A DNA stretch of 64,000 nucleotides, from positions 62,001 through 126,000 of the forward strand of contig NZ_JOAN01000009.1 of NCBI RefSeq assembly GCF_000718555.1. The letters run 5' to 3'. Source of the stretch: Micromonospora chokoriensis. Its GTDB lineage: Bacteria; Actinomycetota; Actinomycetes; Mycobacteriales; Micromonosporaceae. Within the stretch, counting starts at the first letter, position 1. Every line of letters starts with the position of its first letter. A program made the position numbers and the translations under genes. The notes beneath the pieces are model-generated. The model did no database searches, was not told where the DNA came from, and saw nothing but the letters and a program-made list of their open reading frames with translations. Shown piece after piece: positions 14,071 to 21,029 of this stretch.

Positions 14071-14982
14071 TCAGGCGGTCGGCGGCGGGGCGGTCAGTTG
14101 ATCGACCACGACGACGCTGCTGCCGGGGCGTACCTCGGCCAGTAGTTCCCGCTGACCGCTGCGGGTCAGCCGGATGCAGCCGTTCGTGGTGTTCTCGCCC
14201 AGCTCGTCGTCGTGGTGCCAGGTATGCACCCCGATGTGCGCGCCGCGCAGCCCGGACGGCACCGACTCCGGGTCGTCGGGCACCGAACCGAGGGCGTAGA
14301 TGTCCACCCCGCCGTAGACCTCCTCCGGCGGTGGGGTGCGGCCCAGGATGAAGGTCCGCCCGAGTGGGGTTTCCTGCCCCGACTGGCCGAGGCTGACCTC
14401 CCAGGAGCGCACCGCCTTGCCGGCCCGGTACCAGGTGAGCCTGTGGACCTTGCGTTCCACCACGATCTGGTCGCGCAGCGGCACGGTCTCGAACCCGCCG
14501 GGAGGCAGCCAGGCGAGCTGTCGGTTGGCCGAGGGCAGCAGGACGGCGGTCCAGCCGGCACGCCGCTGGGCGATCGGCATGGTCAGCTCGACACCGCGGA
14601 TCGTCGGTTCGAGGAAGGCGCGCGGACGACCGCCCGGCGCGTCGTACGCGGCGATCCGTCTGGTCGGGTGCGCGCCATCGGTCAGCGGCGTGACGTCCAT
14701 GGTGGCTGGATCGGCGGGGAACCCTGCGGGTGCCGGGTCGTAGTCGACCACCGGTAGCCCGTCCGGGGCGGGTGCGGCAGGTGGGACCGACTCCTCCGGG
14801 CTCTGGTCCACACTGCTCGGAGTCGGGTCGGCTACCACCACGTTGCGGTCGTCGGGGGCCGTCGAGCTCGGGGTGAGGGCCTGGCCGACCAGCAACGCGG
14901 TCACCAGCAGCGCGGGTACGCCGATCGCGGCGGCGACCCAGACACCGCGACGACGGTACGGAGTCTTTCGGTCAAACGGCAC
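14071..14982 (-). CDS. L,D-transpeptidase (YkuD domain), membrane-anchored
   Basis: A 303-residue protein. After MPFDRKTPYRRRG comes one membrane helix (VWVAAAIGVPALLVTALLVG), then a Pro/Asp-rich linker. The C-terminal 150 residues carry the YkuD fold: IVVERKVHRLTWYRAGKAV at its start and the catalytic region GAHIGVHTW to TTNGCIRLT (His near 257, Cys near 277). YkuD enzymes make 3-3 cross-links in peptidoglycan. The motif reads NGC where many members have HGC, which is tolerated in the family. An outside location is expected from the anchor. It stands alone and is convergent with the response regulator gene 17 bases away. Confidence 0.9.
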   Translation of the reverse strand: MPFDRKTPYRRRGVWVAAAIGVPALLVTALLVGQALTPSSTAPDDRNVVVADPTPSSVDQSPEESVPPAAPAPDGLPVVDYDPAPAGFPADPATMDVTPLTDGAHPTRRIAAYDAPGGRPRAFLEPTIRGVELTMPIAQRRAGWTAVLLPSANRQLAWLPPGGFETVPLRDQIVVERKVHRLTWYRAGKAVRSWEVSLGQSGQETPLGRTFILGRTPPPEEVYGGVDIYALGSVPDDPESVPSGLRGAHIGVHTWHHDDELGENTTNGCIRLTRSGQRELLAEVRPGSSVVVVDQLTAPPPTA

Positions 14983-15192
14983 GAAACCACTCTATGGTGG
15001 CTGGCGCTTCGGGGCCCTCGGTTCAGCGAGACCCGCCGTGCGGCTTAACGCCAACGCACGCCCACGCCCCTCGGTTCGATTTCGGCCCAGAAATTTTTGT
15101 CGGGTAGTGATCCGCGCGCGCCGCCGGTCCGTACTGGATGGGGGAGCAGGGGTCGGCCGGTGGTACGCCGCCGCGAGACGATCGAGGAGCAG

Positions 15193-16746
15193 ATGGCCCG
15201 GGCACAGCAGGACAAGAAGGCGGCGACCGTCCGGACCAGCGCCAGCAGTCGGGGGGTGCGCACCCGGTCACGGTCGGCGACAGCCCTGCTGATCGCGTCG
15301 GTGCTCGCCGCGCTCTGGGCGGCGATCATGCTGACCGGCGCCGGCCAGACGGCGTACGCGTACGGCTTTTTCTTCACCGAGTTCTTCGCCGGGGTGGTCT
15401 CCCTGGTGTCGTTGAGCCTCACCGTGATGCTCGGTCTACTCGCCACCGACCGGCTGGTGCTGCGCATCTCGCACCGGGTGCTGATGCAGTCGGCGCACCG
15501 GGCCACCGGCGTGCTGGCGGTGGCCGGGCTCGGCTTCCATGTCCTCACCAAGGTCGCCACCGGGCGGGCGGGGGCGACTGACGCGCTGGTGCCGTTCGTC
15601 GGCGGCCGGGGGCTCTACGTCGGGCTCGGCACGGTGGCCGCCCTGCTGATGGTCAGCGTGATCTGGACCGGCATCATCCGGGCCCGCTTCGCCGGCGTCG
15701 GTCCGAAGTGGCTGTGGCGCACGCTGCACTCCACCGCGTACCTGGCCTGGCCGTTCGCCATCCTGCACGGCCTCAACGCCGGCCGGGCCGCGAACTCCTT
15801 GGTGGTGCTCAGCTACCTCGGCTGTGTCCTGCTGGTGGTGCTGGCCCTGCTGGTCCGGTTCTCGGTCACCATCGGTCGGCGCAGCCGCGAGCAGCACCAG
15901 GCCGCGGTGCGCAACGCGGCGCTGGTCGGGCGGGCCAATGAGACGAGCCGTGGCCGAGCGCTGCTGGCCGGGCTGACCCGACGCGGCAAAGCCGACGCCG
16001 ACAAGCGACCCGCCTGGGCGAACACCACCACCGCCACGTGGGCCGCGCCGGCCGCCCGGCGCGACCCCGAACGGTTCACCGTCCCGGTGGTGCCCGAGCC
16101 CGGTTCGCTCGTTGAGCCGACCCGGCCCAGTCGACGTCGGCGGGAGGAGGAGCCGGCGGCCCGCCGCGACACCGAACGGTCCTCGCGCAGCCGACGCGCG
16201 GAGGAAGAGCTGGAGCCGGTGACCCGGCGGCGCGGCTCGCGTAGCCGGGACGAGGCGGTTCCGACCGGCCGGCGACGCGCCGATGAGCCGGCCACCGAGC
16301 GGTCTCGCCGCCGGTCCCGCAGCGAGGACGACGGCAGCCGCTACTCGGCGCCTCCACAGCCGACCCTCGACGAGGCCGAGGAGCCGTGGGACAGCCCGCG
16401 CCGCTGGCAGGCCGCCGAGCCGATCTCCGCCGGCCCGGTCTCCGCCGAGCCCATCTCGGCCGGCCCGGTCTCCAGCAGCCCGATCTCGTCGGCGCCGCGC
16501 AGCGGCAGCGGCCGGCACAGCGTCGAGGACGACCTGCCCGAGGAGCCGGACTACTGGCGCCCGCCGGCCCGGTATGTGCCGGACGAGGTGGAACCGCCGG
16601 TCGACGACACCCCGACCCTTGTCGACCTGGCATCCCGCCGGGCCAAGCGGGCCGCCGGCGAGGGCCGGTCCGCCAAGCGCCGCAAGGCCAGCGCGGACGC
16701 GGTCGACGGGGCGTACTGGGCGGGTCTGCGGGGTGAGGCGAAGTGA
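15193..16746 (+). CDS. Heme-b-like six-helix membrane protein with long charged tail
   Basis: A 517-residue protein. Residues 25-230 hold six predicted helices with His residues suited to heme b: ISHRVLMQSAHRA, GLGFHVLTK and WRTLHSTAYLAWPFAILHG. This is the pattern of ferric-reductase or cytochrome-b-like membrane domains, though I cannot confirm heme. The remaining 270 residues are soluble, low complexity and highly charged (RRREEEPAARRD, RSRRAEEELEPVTRRRGSRS) with a Ser/Pro repeat (ISAGPVSAEPISAGPVSSSP). The ATG at 15193 has GAGGAG in front of it. Its stop overlaps the NuoF-like gene start (TGATG), so it is probably the membrane partner of that dehydrogenase. Confidence 0.75.
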   Translation: MARAQQDKKAATVRTSASSRGVRTRSRSATALLIASVLAALWAAIMLTGAGQTAYAYGFFFTEFFAGVVSLVSLSLTVMLGLLATDRLVLRISHRVLMQSAHRATGVLAVAGLGFHVLTKVATGRAGATDALVPFVGGRGLYVGLGTVAALLMVSVIWTGIIRARFAGVGPKWLWRTLHSTAYLAWPFAILHGLNAGRAANSLVVLSYLGCVLLVVLALLVRFSVTIGRRSREQHQAAVRNAALVGRANETSRGRALLAGLTRRGKADADKRPAWANTTTATWAAPAARRDPERFTVPVVPEPGSLVEPTRPSRRRREEEPAARRDTERSSRSRRAEEELEPVTRRRGSRSRDEAVPTGRRRADEPATERSRRRSRSEDDGSRYSAPPQPTLDEAEEPWDSPRRWQAAEPISAGPVSAEPISAGPVSSSPISSAPRSGSGRHSVEDDLPEEPDYWRPPARYVPDEVEPPVDDTPTLVDLASRRAKRAAGEGRSAKRRKASADAVDGAYWAGLRGEAK

Positions 16747-18209
16747 TGCGGACCGCCGTGCCACCGGTCGCCTGCGTGGGCGAGCCCCGGCTGACCGCCG
16801 GCTTCGCCGAGTACGGCCGACTCGACCTGCTCGCGCACGAGGAGGTGCACGGGCCGATCGGCCCGATGGAGCCGGCGCAGCTGCTCCGGCTCGCCGAGGG
16901 CATGCAGCTCAAGGGCAAGGGCGGGGCGGGTTTCCCGTTCGCCCGCAAACTGCGCGCGGTGCTGGAGTCCTGCGAGCGGCAGGACCTCGCTGCCGTGGTG
17001 GTGGTCAACGCCACCGAGGGGGAGCCGGCCAGCTGGAAGGACAAGGTGCTGCTGACCCGAGCCCCGCACCTGATCCTGGACGGCGCGGCGCTGGCCGCGT
17101 ACGCGCTGGACGCCGACGAGATCGTCATCGGTGTGGCGGACGACGGGGTCGGCCGGGACTCGCTCATGGAGGCTCTCGAAGAGCGCCGGATGCCGGTGCA
17201 GACGACAATCGTCACCGTGCCGCACCGGTTCATCTCCGGCGAGGGCGGCGCGCTTGTCAACGGGATCAACGGGTTGCCGCACATCCCGCCCGGCACCAAG
17301 AAGCGCTCCAGCGACTCCGGGGTCAGCGGCCTGCCCACCCTGCTGTCCAACGCCGAGACGTACGCCCAGCTCGCCATCGGTGCGCGACTCGGCCCGTACG
17401 AGTACGCGGCGCTCGGCACCGACGACGAGCCCGGCACCGTGCTGCTCACCGTGACCGGCGCGGCGGGGCGGCCGGCCGTGGTGGAGTGCACCGCCGGCAT
17501 GCCGCTGCGCGACGTCCTCGACCTGTGCGAGGTCCCGGAGACCCAGGGCATCCTGATGGGCGGCTACCACGGCAAGTGGATCACCGCGGAGGCGGCGGAG
17601 ACGGCCGAGGTCTCCCGCAAGGGCCTGGCCGCGGTTGGTGGCACCCTCGGCGCGGGCATCATCGTCCCGCTCGGTGTCGACACCTGTCCGCTCGGTGAGG
17701 CCGCCCAGGTGGTGCGCTACCTGGCCGGCGAGTCCGCCGGCCAGTGCGGACCGTGCAAGATGGGCCTGCCGGACCTGGCCCGCGCCGTGGACCTGGCCGT
17801 CGCCGGCAGTCAACCCGCGGACGTGGTGCGAGCCGCCGCCGGCGAGGTGAAGGGCCGGGGTGCGTGTAGCCACCCGGACGGCACCGCCCGGTTCGCGCTC
17901 TCCGCGATCGAGGTCTTCGCCGACGACCTGCGGCTGCACAGCACCGGCGACGGCTGTGGCCGGCGGGTCAAGGGCGTGATGGGGCTGCCGGGCGCACCCG
18001 ACGCGAACCCGCAGAAGCTCACCCTGGACTGGTCGCGGTGCGACGGGCACGGCCTGTGCGCGCACGTCGTACCGGACTTCATCCGGCTCGACGCGAACGG
18101 ATACCCCGCCTTCCCCGCCACCCCCGTGCCGACCTGGTTGCGGGAGGGTGCGCTGAAGGCGGTCAAGGTCTGCCCGGAGCTGGCGCTGCGACTCGCCAAG
18201 GCCGAGTAG
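16746..18209 (+). CDS. NuoF-like NADH dehydrogenase subunit fused to a C-terminal ferredoxin
   Basis: A 487-residue protein. Residues 1-250 match the NADH/FMN-binding part of complex I 51-kDa subunits: LKGKGGAGFPFARK, VVVNATEGEPAS, FISGEGGALVNGINGLPHIP and LLSNAETYAQL. An SLBB-like part follows, then the cluster-binding region ESAGQCGPCKMG near 330 and GRGACSHPDG near 373. The last 60 residues are a small ferredoxin with CDGHGLC and KVCPELAL, a three-Cys pattern suggesting a 3Fe-4S cluster. It therefore could pass electrons from NAD(P)H through FMN and clusters to the membrane protein encoded just upstream. There is no NuoE or NuoG homologue nearby, so it is not respiratory complex I. It starts with ATG inside TGATG; one GTG precedes it. 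Confidence 0.82.
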   Translation: MRTAVPPVACVGEPRLTAGFAEYGRLDLLAHEEVHGPIGPMEPAQLLRLAEGMQLKGKGGAGFPFARKLRAVLESCERQDLAAVVVVNATEGEPASWKDKVLLTRAPHLILDGAALAAYALDADEIVIGVADDGVGRDSLMEALEERRMPVQTTIVTVPHRFISGEGGALVNGINGLPHIPPGTKKRSSDSGVSGLPTLLSNAETYAQLAIGARLGPYEYAALGTDDEPGTVLLTVTGAAGRPAVVECTAGMPLRDVLDLCEVPETQGILMGGYHGKWITAEAAETAEVSRKGLAAVGGTLGAGIIVPLGVDTCPLGEAAQVVRYLAGESAGQCGPCKMGLPDLARAVDLAVAGSQPADVVRAAAGEVKGRGACSHPDGTARFALSAIEVFADDLRLHSTGDGCGRRVKGVMGLPGAPDANPQKLTLDWSRCDGHGLCAHVVPDFIRLDANGYPAFPATPVPTWLREGALKAVKVCPELALRLAKAE

Positions 18210-18215
18210 GGCTCA

Positions 18216-18240
18216 GGTCCAGGAAGGTCCCTTCCGGACC
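18216..18240 (+). terminator. Short hairpin between the NuoF-like and thioredoxin-like genes
   Basis: GGTCC-A-GGAAGG pairs with CCTTCC-GGACC around a very short loop. It may attenuate read-through into the next gene; it is too small to be sure it terminates. Confidence 0.4.
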
Positions 18241-18250
18241 GGAAACGGAG

Positions 18251-18889
18251 ATGCGGATGGGCATGGCGTGGACAGGGGCCGGGCGACTGTGCCGCGCCGC
18301 CACCGCCGGGGCGCTCGTGGTGGCCCTGTTCGGCACTGCCGCCTGCACCGGCACCGCGCCGGGCGGGCCCGCCGCCGGCGGGTCGGCCCCGGCCTCGACC
18401 GGTGCGCCGCTCACGCCGACCGGGGCACCGACCGGTGCGCCGCCCACGCCGACTGGCGGGCCGCCCGCCGCCCCGGCGCAGGTCCCGGACGTGCTGCGCT
18501 TCACCGGGACCACTCTCGGCGGAACCCGGTTCGACGCGGCGCAGCTCGCCGGCAAGCCGGTGGTGCTGTGGTTCTGGGCGCCGTGGTGCCCCACCTGTGC
18601 CAGTCAGGCCTGGACGGTGGCCGAGATCGCACCCCAGTACCGGGACACCGTGCCGATCGTCGGCGTCGCCGGGCTAGGTGAACAGCGGGCCATGAAGGAG
18701 TTCGTCACCGAGTTCGACCTCGGCGCGACGCCACAGATCAACGACCGCGCGGGTGCGATCTGGAAGCGGTTCAAGGTGACCGAGCAGAGCATCTTCGTGA
18801 TCATCGACCGGAACGGCACTCTGGTCTACCAGGGATTCCTGGACGGTGAGGCGCTCACCGCCCGGGTCGCCGCCCTGGCCCGGGCATGA
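18251..18889 (+). CDS. Thioredoxin-like (TlpA/ResA-type) lipoprotein
   Basis: A 212-residue exported redox protein. The signal peptide ends in a lipobox, LFGTAAC, so the mature Cys is likely lipidated. A Pro/Thr/Gly linker (residues 40-80) with repeated TPTGAPTGAPPTPTG leads to a thioredoxin fold with active site FWAPWCPTC near residue 115. Such proteins reduce disulfides on the outer face of the membrane, often in heme or copper maturation. Starts at 18251, 18257 and 18263 are all possible; GGAAACGGAG lies directly upstream. The stop overlaps the CcdA gene by 4 bases. CcdA would supply its electrons. Confidence 0.88.
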   Translation: MRMGMAWTGAGRLCRAATAGALVVALFGTAACTGTAPGGPAAGGSAPASTGAPLTPTGAPTGAPPTPTGGPPAAPAQVPDVLRFTGTTLGGTRFDAAQLAGKPVVLWFWAPWCPTCASQAWTVAEIAPQYRDTVPIVGVAGLGEQRAMKEFVTEFDLGATPQINDRAGAIWKRFKVTEQSIFVIIDRNGTLVYQGFLDGEALTARVAALARA

Positions 18890-19749
18890 GGGCCACACTG
18901 CTGCTCGCGCTGACCGCCGGCATGCTCGGCGCGGTCAACCCGTGCGGCTTCGCGCTGCTGCCCGCGTACCTCTCGCTGTTGGTCGCCGGGAAGTCGGACA
19001 CCCGCGGCGCGGTCGGCCGCGCGCTCACCGCGGCGGCCGGGCTGACCCTGGGGTACGTGCTGGTCTTCGGCGCGTTCGGCCTGGCGCTCGCGCCGCTGGC
19101 CGGCTGGCTGCGCCCCCGGCTGCCGTGGCTGACCGTGGCGCTCGGCGTGCTGCTGGTGGTGGCTGGCTGCTGGCTGCTCGCCGGTCGACGGCTGCCCGCC
19201 CCCGGCTGGTCCGCCCGGGCACCCCGGTTGACCCGATCCTGGCCGTCGATGGCGTTGTTCGGCGCGGCGTACGCGCTGGCGTCGCTCGGCTGCGCCATCG
19301 CGCCGTTCCTGGCGATCGTGGTGACCAGCCTCCAGGCCGGCACGACCGGCCAGGGGTTGGCGCTGTTCGGCGCGTACGCCCTCGGGATGGGGTTGGTGGT
19401 CGCGGTCGCCGCGCTCGGCGTGGCGCTGGTGCGCGACGGCCTGGTGGCCCGGCTGCGGGTCGCCGGCGCGCTGGTGCCCCGCCTCAGTGGCCTGGTGCTG
19501 CTGCTCGCCGGCACCTACGTGGCCTGGTACGGCTGGTACGAGCTACGCCTAGCCGCCGGCCGCCGAGACGCCCGCCAAGACCCGGTCATCCAAGCAGCGT
19601 CAAAGGTGCAGCACACCATGACCAACGCCCTGGACACGGTCGGCCCAGCGTTGCTGCTGACCGCCCTCGTCCTGCTCGCCGTGCTGGGCGTGTGGATGCG
19701 TCGACGGGGGCACGGGGTGGACCCGGCCCCCGTCGAACGACCCGGTTAG
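18886..19749 (+). CDS. CcdA/DsbD-type transmembrane thiol-disulfide carrier
   Basis: A 287-residue membrane protein with six main helices plus two near the C-terminus. The redox Cys residues sit in AVNPCGFALLPAYLSL (helix 1) and SLGCAIAPFLAIV (helix 4), the classic CcdA positions. It moves electrons from cytosolic thioredoxin to extracytoplasmic partners, here almost certainly the lipoprotein encoded just upstream with an ATGA overlap. An extra C-terminal helix and Arg-rich tail (LGVWMRRRGHG) are not part of the minimal family. The stop overlaps the convergent serS stop by 4 bases. Confidence 0.9.
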   Translation: MRATLLLALTAGMLGAVNPCGFALLPAYLSLLVAGKSDTRGAVGRALTAAAGLTLGYVLVFGAFGLALAPLAGWLRPRLPWLTVALGVLLVVAGCWLLAGRRLPAPGWSARAPRLTRSWPSMALFGAAYALASLGCAIAPFLAIVVTSLQAGTTGQGLALFGAYALGMGLVVAVAALGVALVRDGLVARLRVAGALVPRLSGLVLLLAGTYVAWYGWYELRLAAGRRDARQDPVIQAASKVQHTMTNALDTVGPALLLTALVLLAVLGVWMRRRGHGVDPAPVERPG

Positions 19750-21029
19750 CGGGGGGTCAGGCGGTCGGTGCCTAGGCGGTCTTGGAGGACCTCGGGGACC
19801 AGGACGCTGCCGTCGGCCTGCTGGTACTGCTCCAGGATGGCCGGGAAGAGCCGGCTGGTGGCCAGCGCCGACCCGTTGAGGGTGTGCACGAACCGGGTCT
19901 GCTTGCCGCCCGGCTCGCGGTAGCGGATCGCCGCCCGACGCGCCTGGTAGTCGCCGGCCCAGGAGACCGACGACACCTCCTTGTACTTGCCGGTGCTCGG
20001 CATCCACACCTCGATGTCGAGCGTCTTCTTCATCGAGGCGCTGGCGTCACCGGCCGAGAGCAGCGTGCGCTGGTAGTGCAGACCCAGCCCCTCGACCAGA
20101 CCCTCGGCGTGGGCGAGCATCTCCTCCAGCGCCGCGTCGGCCTGCTCCGGCAGGGTGAACTGGAAGATCTCCACCTTGTTGAACTGGTGCCCCCGCACCG
20201 TGCCGCGCTCGTCCGAGTGCGAACCGGCCGACTCCCGCCGGTAGCACGGGGTGTACGCGAAGGCCTTCAGCGGCAGCTTCGGGGTCTCCAGGATCTCGTC
20301 CTGGTATGCCCCGAGGATCGCCGTCTCCGACGTGGGCAGCAGGAACTGACCGCGCGGGGCGGACGCTGAATCCAGGTGGTAGACGTCGTCGTAGAACTTG
20401 GGGAACTGCCCGGCGGCGAAGCCGGCCGAATCCAACAGCAGGTGCGGCGGGAGCAGGAACTCGTAGCCAGCCTTGATGTGCTGGTCGACGAAGTAGTTGA
20501 GCAGCGCCCACTCCAGCCGGGCGCCGATCCCCGTGTAGATCCAGAAGCCGGACCCGCCGAGCTTGACGCCCCGCTCGTAGTCGACCAGGCCCAGCGCGCG
20601 GCTCAGCTCCACGTGGTCGCGGACCTTCTCGATCACCGGAGGCGCACCGAAGGTCTTCACGACCTGGTTGGCTTCCTTGCCGCCGGCCACGACGTCGTCG
20701 CTGGGCAGGTTGGGCAGCTCACTCATCGCGTCGCGCAGCCGAGCCTGCACCTCGTCCAGCTGAGACTCCAGCTCGGCGAGCTGCTTACGCTCGGCCTCCG
20801 GCGCGGCGATCTGCGGCTCCTCGCCGGCCCGCTTCGCCTGCGCGTACGCCCGGGCCTCGGCCTTGCGGCGCTGCCGCTCGGCGTCGATCTCCGTGATCAG
20901 GGCGCGGCGTTCCTGGTCGAGCCGCTGGATCTCGTCCAGCGCTCGGGTGACCTCGGCGGGATCCAGACGCTTCGCCAGCGCGGTTGCCACCGCCTCGCGA
21001 TCCTTCCGGATCAACTCCATGTCGAGCAT
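19746..21029 (-). CDS. serS: Seryl-tRNA synthetase
   Basis: A 427-residue class II synthetase that charges tRNA-Ser (and tRNA-Sec where present). An N-terminal antiparallel coiled-coil arm (residues 25-110, IQRLDQERRALITEIDAERQ) binds the tRNA long arm. The catalytic core follows, with the motif 2 region ACYRRESAGSHSDERGTVRG near residue 260 and motif 3 NGSALATSRLFPAILEQYQ near residue 390. Length and order fit the family. The gene appears to be alone; the gap to the MerR-type gene on the same strand is about 100 bases downstream of the latter's stop. Confidence 0.97.
   Translation of the reverse strand: MLDMELIRKDREAVATALAKRLDPAEVTRALDEIQRLDQERRALITEIDAERQRRKAEARAYAQAKRAGEEPQIAAPEAERKQLAELESQLDEVQARLRDAMSELPNLPSDDVVAGGKEANQVVKTFGAPPVIEKVRDHVELSRALGLVDYERGVKLGGSGFWIYTGIGARLEWALLNYFVDQHIKAGYEFLLPPHLLLDSAGFAAGQFPKFYDDVYHLDSASAPRGQFLLPTSETAILGAYQDEILETPKLPLKAFAYTPCYRRESAGSHSDERGTVRGHQFNKVEIFQFTLPEQADAALEEMLAHAEGLVEGLGLHYQRTLLSAGDASASMKKTLDIEVWMPSTGKYKEVSSVSWAGDYQARRAAIRYREPGGKQTRFVHTLNGSALATSRLFPAILEQYQQADGSVLVPEVLQDRLGTDRLTPR

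Follow-up and report, generated by a model that had tools for sequence, protein, structure and literature searches.

The closest described systems are MsrQ-like flavinylation gene clusters, of which the pertinent sentences of a survey count 1797, 31 of them with a NuoF-like protein (Meheust et al. 2021, PMC8238504). The same sentences propose NAD(P)H (reduced nicotinamide adenine dinucleotide, with or without phosphate) as the electron donor (PMC8238504). The locus analyzed here lies at positions 15193-19749 of a 64,000-nucleotide stretch of the actinomycete Micromonospora chokoriensis (contig NZ_JOAN01000009.1, positions 62,001 to 126,000), which we call the window. It shares with these clusters a ferric-reductase-type membrane gene placed directly before a NuoF-like gene and a mostly actinobacterial setting. 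It differs from them, as those sentences describe them, in a ferredoxin fused to NuoF, a long tail with a conserved tip on the membrane protein and, in part of the family, a thioredoxin lipoprotein 3' of nuoF. The window type also lacks the flavinylation genes: across the available stretches of 153 window-type loci, tblastn with four ApbE queries found no apbE (0/153), and the one-helix protein bearing the strict C-terminal tag of the apbE-type clusters (defined below) was likewise not found (0/153). The window has four open reading frames in a row on the same strand, as the original prediction held:

15193..16746, plus strand: gene 1, predicted di-heme b type membrane protein (ferric-reductase/NOX/MsrQ-like), 517 residues, from its histidines, helices and fold
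16743..18209, plus strand: gene 2, NuoF-like flavoprotein with a C-terminal ferredoxin, 488 residues, from Pfam, NCBIfam, alignment and a structure model
18251..18889, plus strand: gene 3, lipoprotein-type thioredoxin of the DsbF/MPT53 kind, from PDB relatives and alignment
18886..19749, plus strand: gene 4, CcdA-like membrane protein with Cys20 and Cys136, from Pfam and alignment

Our best explanation, held with slightly better than even confidence, is that genes 1 and 2 encode a transmembrane electron conduit driven by NAD(P)H. It would be a branch of the NuoF-like/MsrQ-like clusters that does without flavinylation, and the thioredoxin and CcdA would be an accessory to it, normally powered by CcdA. 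The cytosolic NuoF-like flavoprotein would take a hydride from NAD(P)H on its flavin mononucleotide (FMN). Single electrons would then pass from FMN to a three-cysteine cluster and on to the protein's own [3Fe-4S]-type ferredoxin, from there to the inner heme of the two b-type hemes of the six-helix protein, and then to the outer heme, which would hand them to an extracytoplasmic acceptor. A flexible charged tail with a conserved tip probably tethers the flavoprotein, and the thioredoxin lipoprotein beside the conduit would normally be fed by CcdA. The basis of the conduit is gene order, histidines, predicted fold, cysteine pattern and distribution; from these we infer the heme and other cofactors, the direction of flow, the function of the tail and the powering of the thiol module.

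Conservation of the gene pair

Genes 1 and 2 form a conserved core unit, paired beyond chance both in Micromonosporaceae and outside it. The pairing was followed in two sets of loci that have species in common: the best 80 of 223 loci by match to the NuoF-like protein (the 80-locus set), and a family sample of 73 loci made up of the window and 72 of the 83 other orthologue places. Gene 1 stands directly before gene 2 in 77 of the 80 loci, the three misses having less than 600 bp of upstream sequence, and in 72 of the 73 family-sample loci, where the sole miss lies at a contig end. The nearest loci by NuoF-like protein, among the best 80 of 223, belong to Micromonospora species and show 98% identity. 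Within the family, the NuoF-ferredoxin protein has a match at E <= 1e-60 in 88 of 160 genomes, in a few cases through an apbE-type paralogue only; class-wide, orthologues at E <= 1e-90 occur in 34 of 296 genomes and 10 of 114 genera. Three loci from another family of the class carry the pair without a thioredoxin (3/3 outgroup loci). The original prediction had expected a conserved order of four genes; the pair of genes 1 and 2 stays together, and the thioredoxin and CcdA genes are not obligatory.

Gene 1 and gene 2 as proposed electron carriers

Four features of the gene 1 protein concern predicted heme binding and a probable contact with its partner:

15496..15540, plus strand: first predicted heme-ligand pair, His102 (15496-15498) and His116 (15538-15540), spaced H-x13-H on the helix of residues 92-122
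15727..15768, plus strand: second predicted heme-ligand pair, His179 (15727-15729) and His192 (15766-15768), spaced H-x12-H on the helix of residues 172-195
16603..16644, plus strand: conserved tail motif DDTPTLVDLASRRA, present in a looser form in 51 family-sample loci
16714..16743, plus strand: C-terminal tail tip YWAGLRGEAK, a candidate docking motif

Gene 1 membrane domain: six long helices lie within residues 27-259, and helix prediction and alignment agree on the several membrane histidines that had been noted at the outset. The two histidine pairs sit on helices 3 and 5, and all four residues are invariant in the 24 aligned gene 1 sequences (24/24). The best predicted-fold matches are SpNOX, STEAP and NOX5. 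Searches with the window protein gave no match in Pfam (up to E 1) or in NCBIfam (up to E 0.1); PF01794 is matched at E <= 0.1 by 10 of the 24 alignment members (best 1.5e-9), the window protein not among them. By its histidine pattern and modelled fold, gene 1 is a divergent ferric-reductase/NOX/MsrQ-type di-heme b protein with predicted heme, as the original label of a heme-b-like membrane protein implied. Its likeness to MsrPQ, NOX and STEAP systems lies in the six helices, the histidine pairs on the third and fifth of them, and a NOX and STEAP fold, MsrQ itself being outside the comparison; sequence similarity to the NOX/STEAP-type oxidoreductases is marginal only. Unlike those systems, gene 1 has no fused flavin/NAD domain, and electrons would come instead from the separate NuoF-like protein.

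Gene 1 tail: the membrane domain is followed by a charged, low-complexity tail, 286 residues long from residue 232. Tail length varies from 64 to 619 residues across relatives, and two motifs near the far end are kept. The DDTPTLVDLASRRA motif, 40-60 residues before the C-terminus, retains in its looser form the P, the D after V and the second R in 51/51 loci each. The YWAGLRGEAK-type tip pattern occurs in 131 of 149 tails, with near-variants in 10 of the 18 exceptions; in 58 family-sample rows picked by a looser form of it, E is kept in 55 and A in 53. Synonymous codons vary at both motifs. Such retention despite variable length is what would be expected of the docking arm originally proposed, and a docking function remains our reading of the tail.

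Three sites of the gene 2 protein would carry the cytosolic steps:

16914..16937, plus strand: FMN-site motif GKGGAGFP, residues 58-65
17736..17867, plus strand: N3-like cluster site with three cysteines, C335, C338 and C375, and Ala332 in place of the first complex I cysteine
18015..18206, plus strand: C-terminal ferredoxin (Fer4_15), C433-x2-H-x2-C439 ... C477-P, a [3Fe-4S]-type motif

Gene 2 architecture: Pfam matches to Complex1_51K, NADH_4Fe-4S and Fer4_15 in one protein bear out the predicted NuoF-ferredoxin fusion. The protein scores 144.4 bits against TIGR01959, the complex I NuoF equivalog, far below the cut-off of 558.65, which upholds the earlier statement that it is not complex I; no NuoE or NuoG was recognised among the neighbours read. 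The structure model, with a predicted local distance difference test (pLDDT) score of 84.2, about 60 in the ferredoxin part, has a fold resembling the NuoF, HydB and NfnB subunits. Gene 2 shares with these subunits the FMN motif and the Complex1_51K and NADH_4Fe-4S domains as well as the fold, and differs from them in Ala for the first N3 cysteine, GEGG for GEET and the C-terminal [3Fe-4S]-type ferredoxin. In GKGGAGFP, which we take to be the FMN-site motif, G58, G60, G61, A62, F64 and P65 are invariant in 11/11, complex I NuoF (L111) included. Complex I NuoF (L111) has Cys at the first N3 position, where 156 window-type frames have Ala (154) or Ser (2) and 54 apbE-type frames have Ala (52) or Leu (1), one being unmatched. 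At the nucleotide site, GEET of NuoF has become GEGG in 151 of the 156 window-type frames, a change that, by analogy with complex I mutants, may loosen the choice between NADH and NADPH.

The ferredoxin part carries the motif CxxHxxC...CP, with the middle H in 153 of the 156 frames and 3 unmatched. Motifs of the form CXX?XXC(X)nCP belong to [3/4Fe-4S] ferredoxins in mycobacteria, according to the passage of PMC6237146 that treats them. The nearest PDB sequences include P450-linked ferredoxins. This kinship would suit a flow in the opposite direction, in which an outer donor or a quinol would reduce NAD(P)+ or a cytosolic ferredoxin partner, and NuoF-type flavins are reversible. NAD(P)+ reduction would, however, need an energy input, and no subunit for that was seen. 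Moreover, in the sentences that the survey gives to them, the apbE-type relatives are read by their describers as NAD(P)H-fed (PMC8238504), and we regard reverse flow as very improbable. NuoF-like genes with a separate ferredoxin occur in another family of the same order beside amidohydrolase- and Rieske-looking genes (L120, L123, L124, L126, L127); no membrane partner was seen beside them, and they represent another use of the same NuoF type.

The thioredoxin-CcdA module

Gene 3 matches Redoxin and AhpC-TSA in Pfam, and its best PDB relatives are DsbF (1e-30) and MPT53 (3e-26). It has a lipoprotein-type Cys32, CPTC at residues 113-116 and Ser180 at the cis-proline place; Cys32, both CxxC cysteines and Ser180 are kept in 63/63 aligned thioredoxins, and a cruder count finds the Ser in 82/83. 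Gene 4 reaches 24.7 bits against DsbD_TM (PF02683), just under the cut-off of 27.1, and CcdA-like proteins keep Cys20 in 57/58 and Cys136 in 56/58. The pair resembles Mycobacterium tuberculosis DsbF/MPT53 and the CcdA family in its best PDB relatives and in a CcdA-like partner with two membrane cysteines. It differs in the Ser, where DsbF and MPT53 have an aligned Pro, in the lipoprotein-type signal and in having the conduit as genomic neighbour. Among the 120 homologues listed of 622 for the thioredoxin, those with an organism name are all Micromonospora.

Downstream genes were counted at loci with at least 2 kb 3' of nuoF, CcdA by a trimmed profile. The 73 such loci of the 80-locus set comprise 52 with thioredoxin and CcdA, 12 with thioredoxin only, 1 with a decayed thioredoxin, 1 with a CcdA remnant only and 7 with neither; the corresponding numbers for the 68 loci of the family sample are 20, 12, 2, 0 and 34. 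An intact thioredoxin lies 3' of nuoF in 64/73 and 32/68 loci, respectively, and no intact CcdA was found without a thioredoxin among the 73 + 68 loci. On a NuoF tree of 74 rows, from which short or truncated rows were left out, the thioredoxin label changes 6 times, versus 24.6 in shuffles, and falls into three separated clades, at the same place in each. This pattern is best read as an old thioredoxin linkage lost several times.

Away from the conduit the module has a life of its own. Class-wide, a thioredoxin match (E <= 1e-12) is present in 63 of the 296 genomes, NuoF-ferredoxin in 34 and both in 12; the two are adjacent only in 3 genomes of the window's genus, and in 9 of the 12 they are separated by 30 kb or more or stand on different contigs. 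Thirty class-wide thioredoxin loci, read by eye and biased as the best matches to a Ser-type query, have Ser (19), Tyr (10) or Pro (1) at the cis-proline place, and 28 of the 30 have a CcdA match in reach. By eye, actinomycete DsbF-like thioredoxins beside CcdA mostly have Ser or Tyr there (EQS, TQQY). We considered and rejected the Ser as an adaptation to the conduit: because Ser-type thioredoxin and CcdA occur away from it, the Ser is a property of the thioredoxin-CcdA module.

Thioredoxin and CcdA are probably an accessory, self-sufficient module that reduces thiols and was added to the unit in Micromonosporaceae. The idea of the four genes as one obligatory set does not hold, given the 34/68 family loci without thioredoxin and the module's occurrence without the conduit elsewhere. 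The further proposal was that the set moves electrons across the membrane to an outer thiol or metal target. A CcdA by itself usually supplies a thioredoxin of this type with electrons, so the genes can be explained without any transfer from heme to thiol. As a whole, the original observation is partly confirmed and its interpretation partly supported.

Direct heme-to-thioredoxin flow is nevertheless possible. The conduit would then reduce the lipoprotein itself, outer heme to CxxC, perhaps through a bound metal or Fe-S cluster, with CcdA as a second or back-up feed. The three separated clades with thioredoxin directly 3' of nuoF speak for it, as do the thioredoxins kept without adjacent CcdA (12/73 and 12/68 loci), the lack of any intact CcdA without thioredoxin, and the Ser for cis-Pro in 63/63. 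Thioredoxins in which the cis-Pro is replaced can bind metal or Fe-S (Su et al. 2007, as cited in passages of PMC2757866 and PMC8161271), and such a bound centre could take single electrons. Many actinomycete genomes, however, have this Ser-type thioredoxin and a CcdA at places apart from the conduit, and the pair without thioredoxin (34/68 family and 3/3 outgroup loci) also weighs against direct reduction, which we consider unlikely. Those thioredoxin-free loci count, together with best folds that are oxygen and metal reductases, towards a conduit ending on quinone, ferric iron or oxygen in the manner of MsrQ, STEAP or NOX, the thioredoxin neighbours being unrelated to its acceptor. Against such an end point, no iron-uptake, MsrP-like or quinone-linked neighbour was recognised in the loci read, by eye only and with no family search made, and we give it a low probability as well.

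The junctions differ from the first description, in which three overlapped: 4-bp overlaps occur at two of the three, between genes 1 and 2 and between genes 3 and 4, whereas 41 bp (18210-18250) separate genes 2 and 3. Gene 2 starts at GTG 16743 or ATG 16746. The 41-bp gap contains one feature:

18216..18240, plus strand: hairpin between the nuoF-like and thioredoxin genes, terminator features absent

The hairpin is present as noted originally, and the role of terminator considered for it is without support. A search for terminator-like sites over 14900-19900 found none, no T run lies 3' of the hairpin, the stretch folds no better than its shuffles (z -0.08), and an AAGG..CCTT core lies within 60 nt 3' of nuoF in 8 of 102 thioredoxin-bearing loci.

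Divergent from gene 1, an L,D-transpeptidase (YkuD) with NGCIRL lies at 14071-14982 on the minus strand. Of the 80-locus set, 67 loci reach far enough to show such a gene, and 54 of these have it near the pair, 1.8-4.0 kb from nuoF. It was rejected as a client of the thioredoxin: 30 of 33 thioredoxin-bearing family-sample loci show no match, a weak absence given an upstream reach of ~3.5 kb, and the gene is also present at thioredoxin-free loci, 6/8 in the 80-locus set and 4/34 in the family sample. A ~190-residue protein with one helix and an EHAAHGHEVN motif recurs 3' of the unit in one genus (L155, L184, L185, L187).

Flavinylation-linked relatives and implications

A paralogous NuoF stands in apbE-cytb-nuoF trios in 7/7 family loci examined, out of 24 such places listed, and in 4 of the more distant loci. 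The frame just before apbE in these apbE-type clusters encodes a one-helix, low-complexity protein (from 95 residues) that ends in (S/T)xGS. In the 44 loci where apbE precedes nuoF and 400 bp or more of upstream sequence is available, the strict tag (S/T)G(G/A)(S/T) occurs 23 times, versus 6 of 860 other helix-bearing frames at the same loci. The relaxed tag (S/T)x(G/A)(S/T), a form picked after inspection of the strict misses, the tag itself having first been spotted on reading upstream frames, occurs in 37 of the 44, versus 13 of 846 other helix-bearing frames.

Strict-tag frames, directly before apbE: L125, L141-L147, L250, L252, L264, L271-L274, L277, L279-L284, L288

The C-terminal tag resembles the ApbE site [S/T]GA[S/T]; 'SGGS' was not found in the main text of either of two flavinylation papers, and an internal motif search of proteins near the apbE clusters gave one chance match only. 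By its sequence, the tagged one-helix protein is a candidate for a minimal substrate of ApbE, which would act as a flexible, tethered flavin carrier. At the window-type loci the relaxed tag appears in 7/153, each time in a ~290-residue frame at the CcdA place.

Neither the ApbE matches of this genome nor its sole FMN_bind match (C9:148693) fall within the window. At ~146.9-149.7 kb of the same contig (C9), three genes stand in a row, for a 472-residue protein that by eye is ferric-reductase-like, for an FMN_bind protein containing VSGATE and for an ApbE; they are the genome's own flavinylation system. Matches of FMN_bind and CcdA at E 1e-4 to 1e-10 were judged from their scores and places to be low-complexity chance and set aside.

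These relatives suggest a further reading, which we think quite doubtful: a membrane-tethered thioredoxin may have replaced the covalently flavinylated, tethered tail that the parent apbE clusters may use. The same conduit and the same layout of anchor, disordered linker and redox head would have been retained, with a Ser-for-cis-Pro CxxC head, perhaps metal-loaded, taking single electrons from heme b. If this replacement is true, it would provide a heme-to-thiol route across the membrane independent of DsbD/CcdA chemistry, which is what loci with thioredoxin but without adjacent CcdA might need.

In the open-licence literature searched, the NuoF-like/MsrQ-like conduit appears only in two sentences of the flavinylation survey (PMC8238504). 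The present analysis adds a branch of that conduit without flavinylation genes, in 34/296 class-wide genomes, for which we offer as predictions three-cysteine clusters, two b hemes and a docking tip on the tail. In addition, the parent apbE clusters suggest what a minimal substrate of ApbE might be. The existence of species that have thioredoxin and CcdA next to this conduit, and of others that lack them there, offers a natural test of whether a heme can feed an outer thiol.

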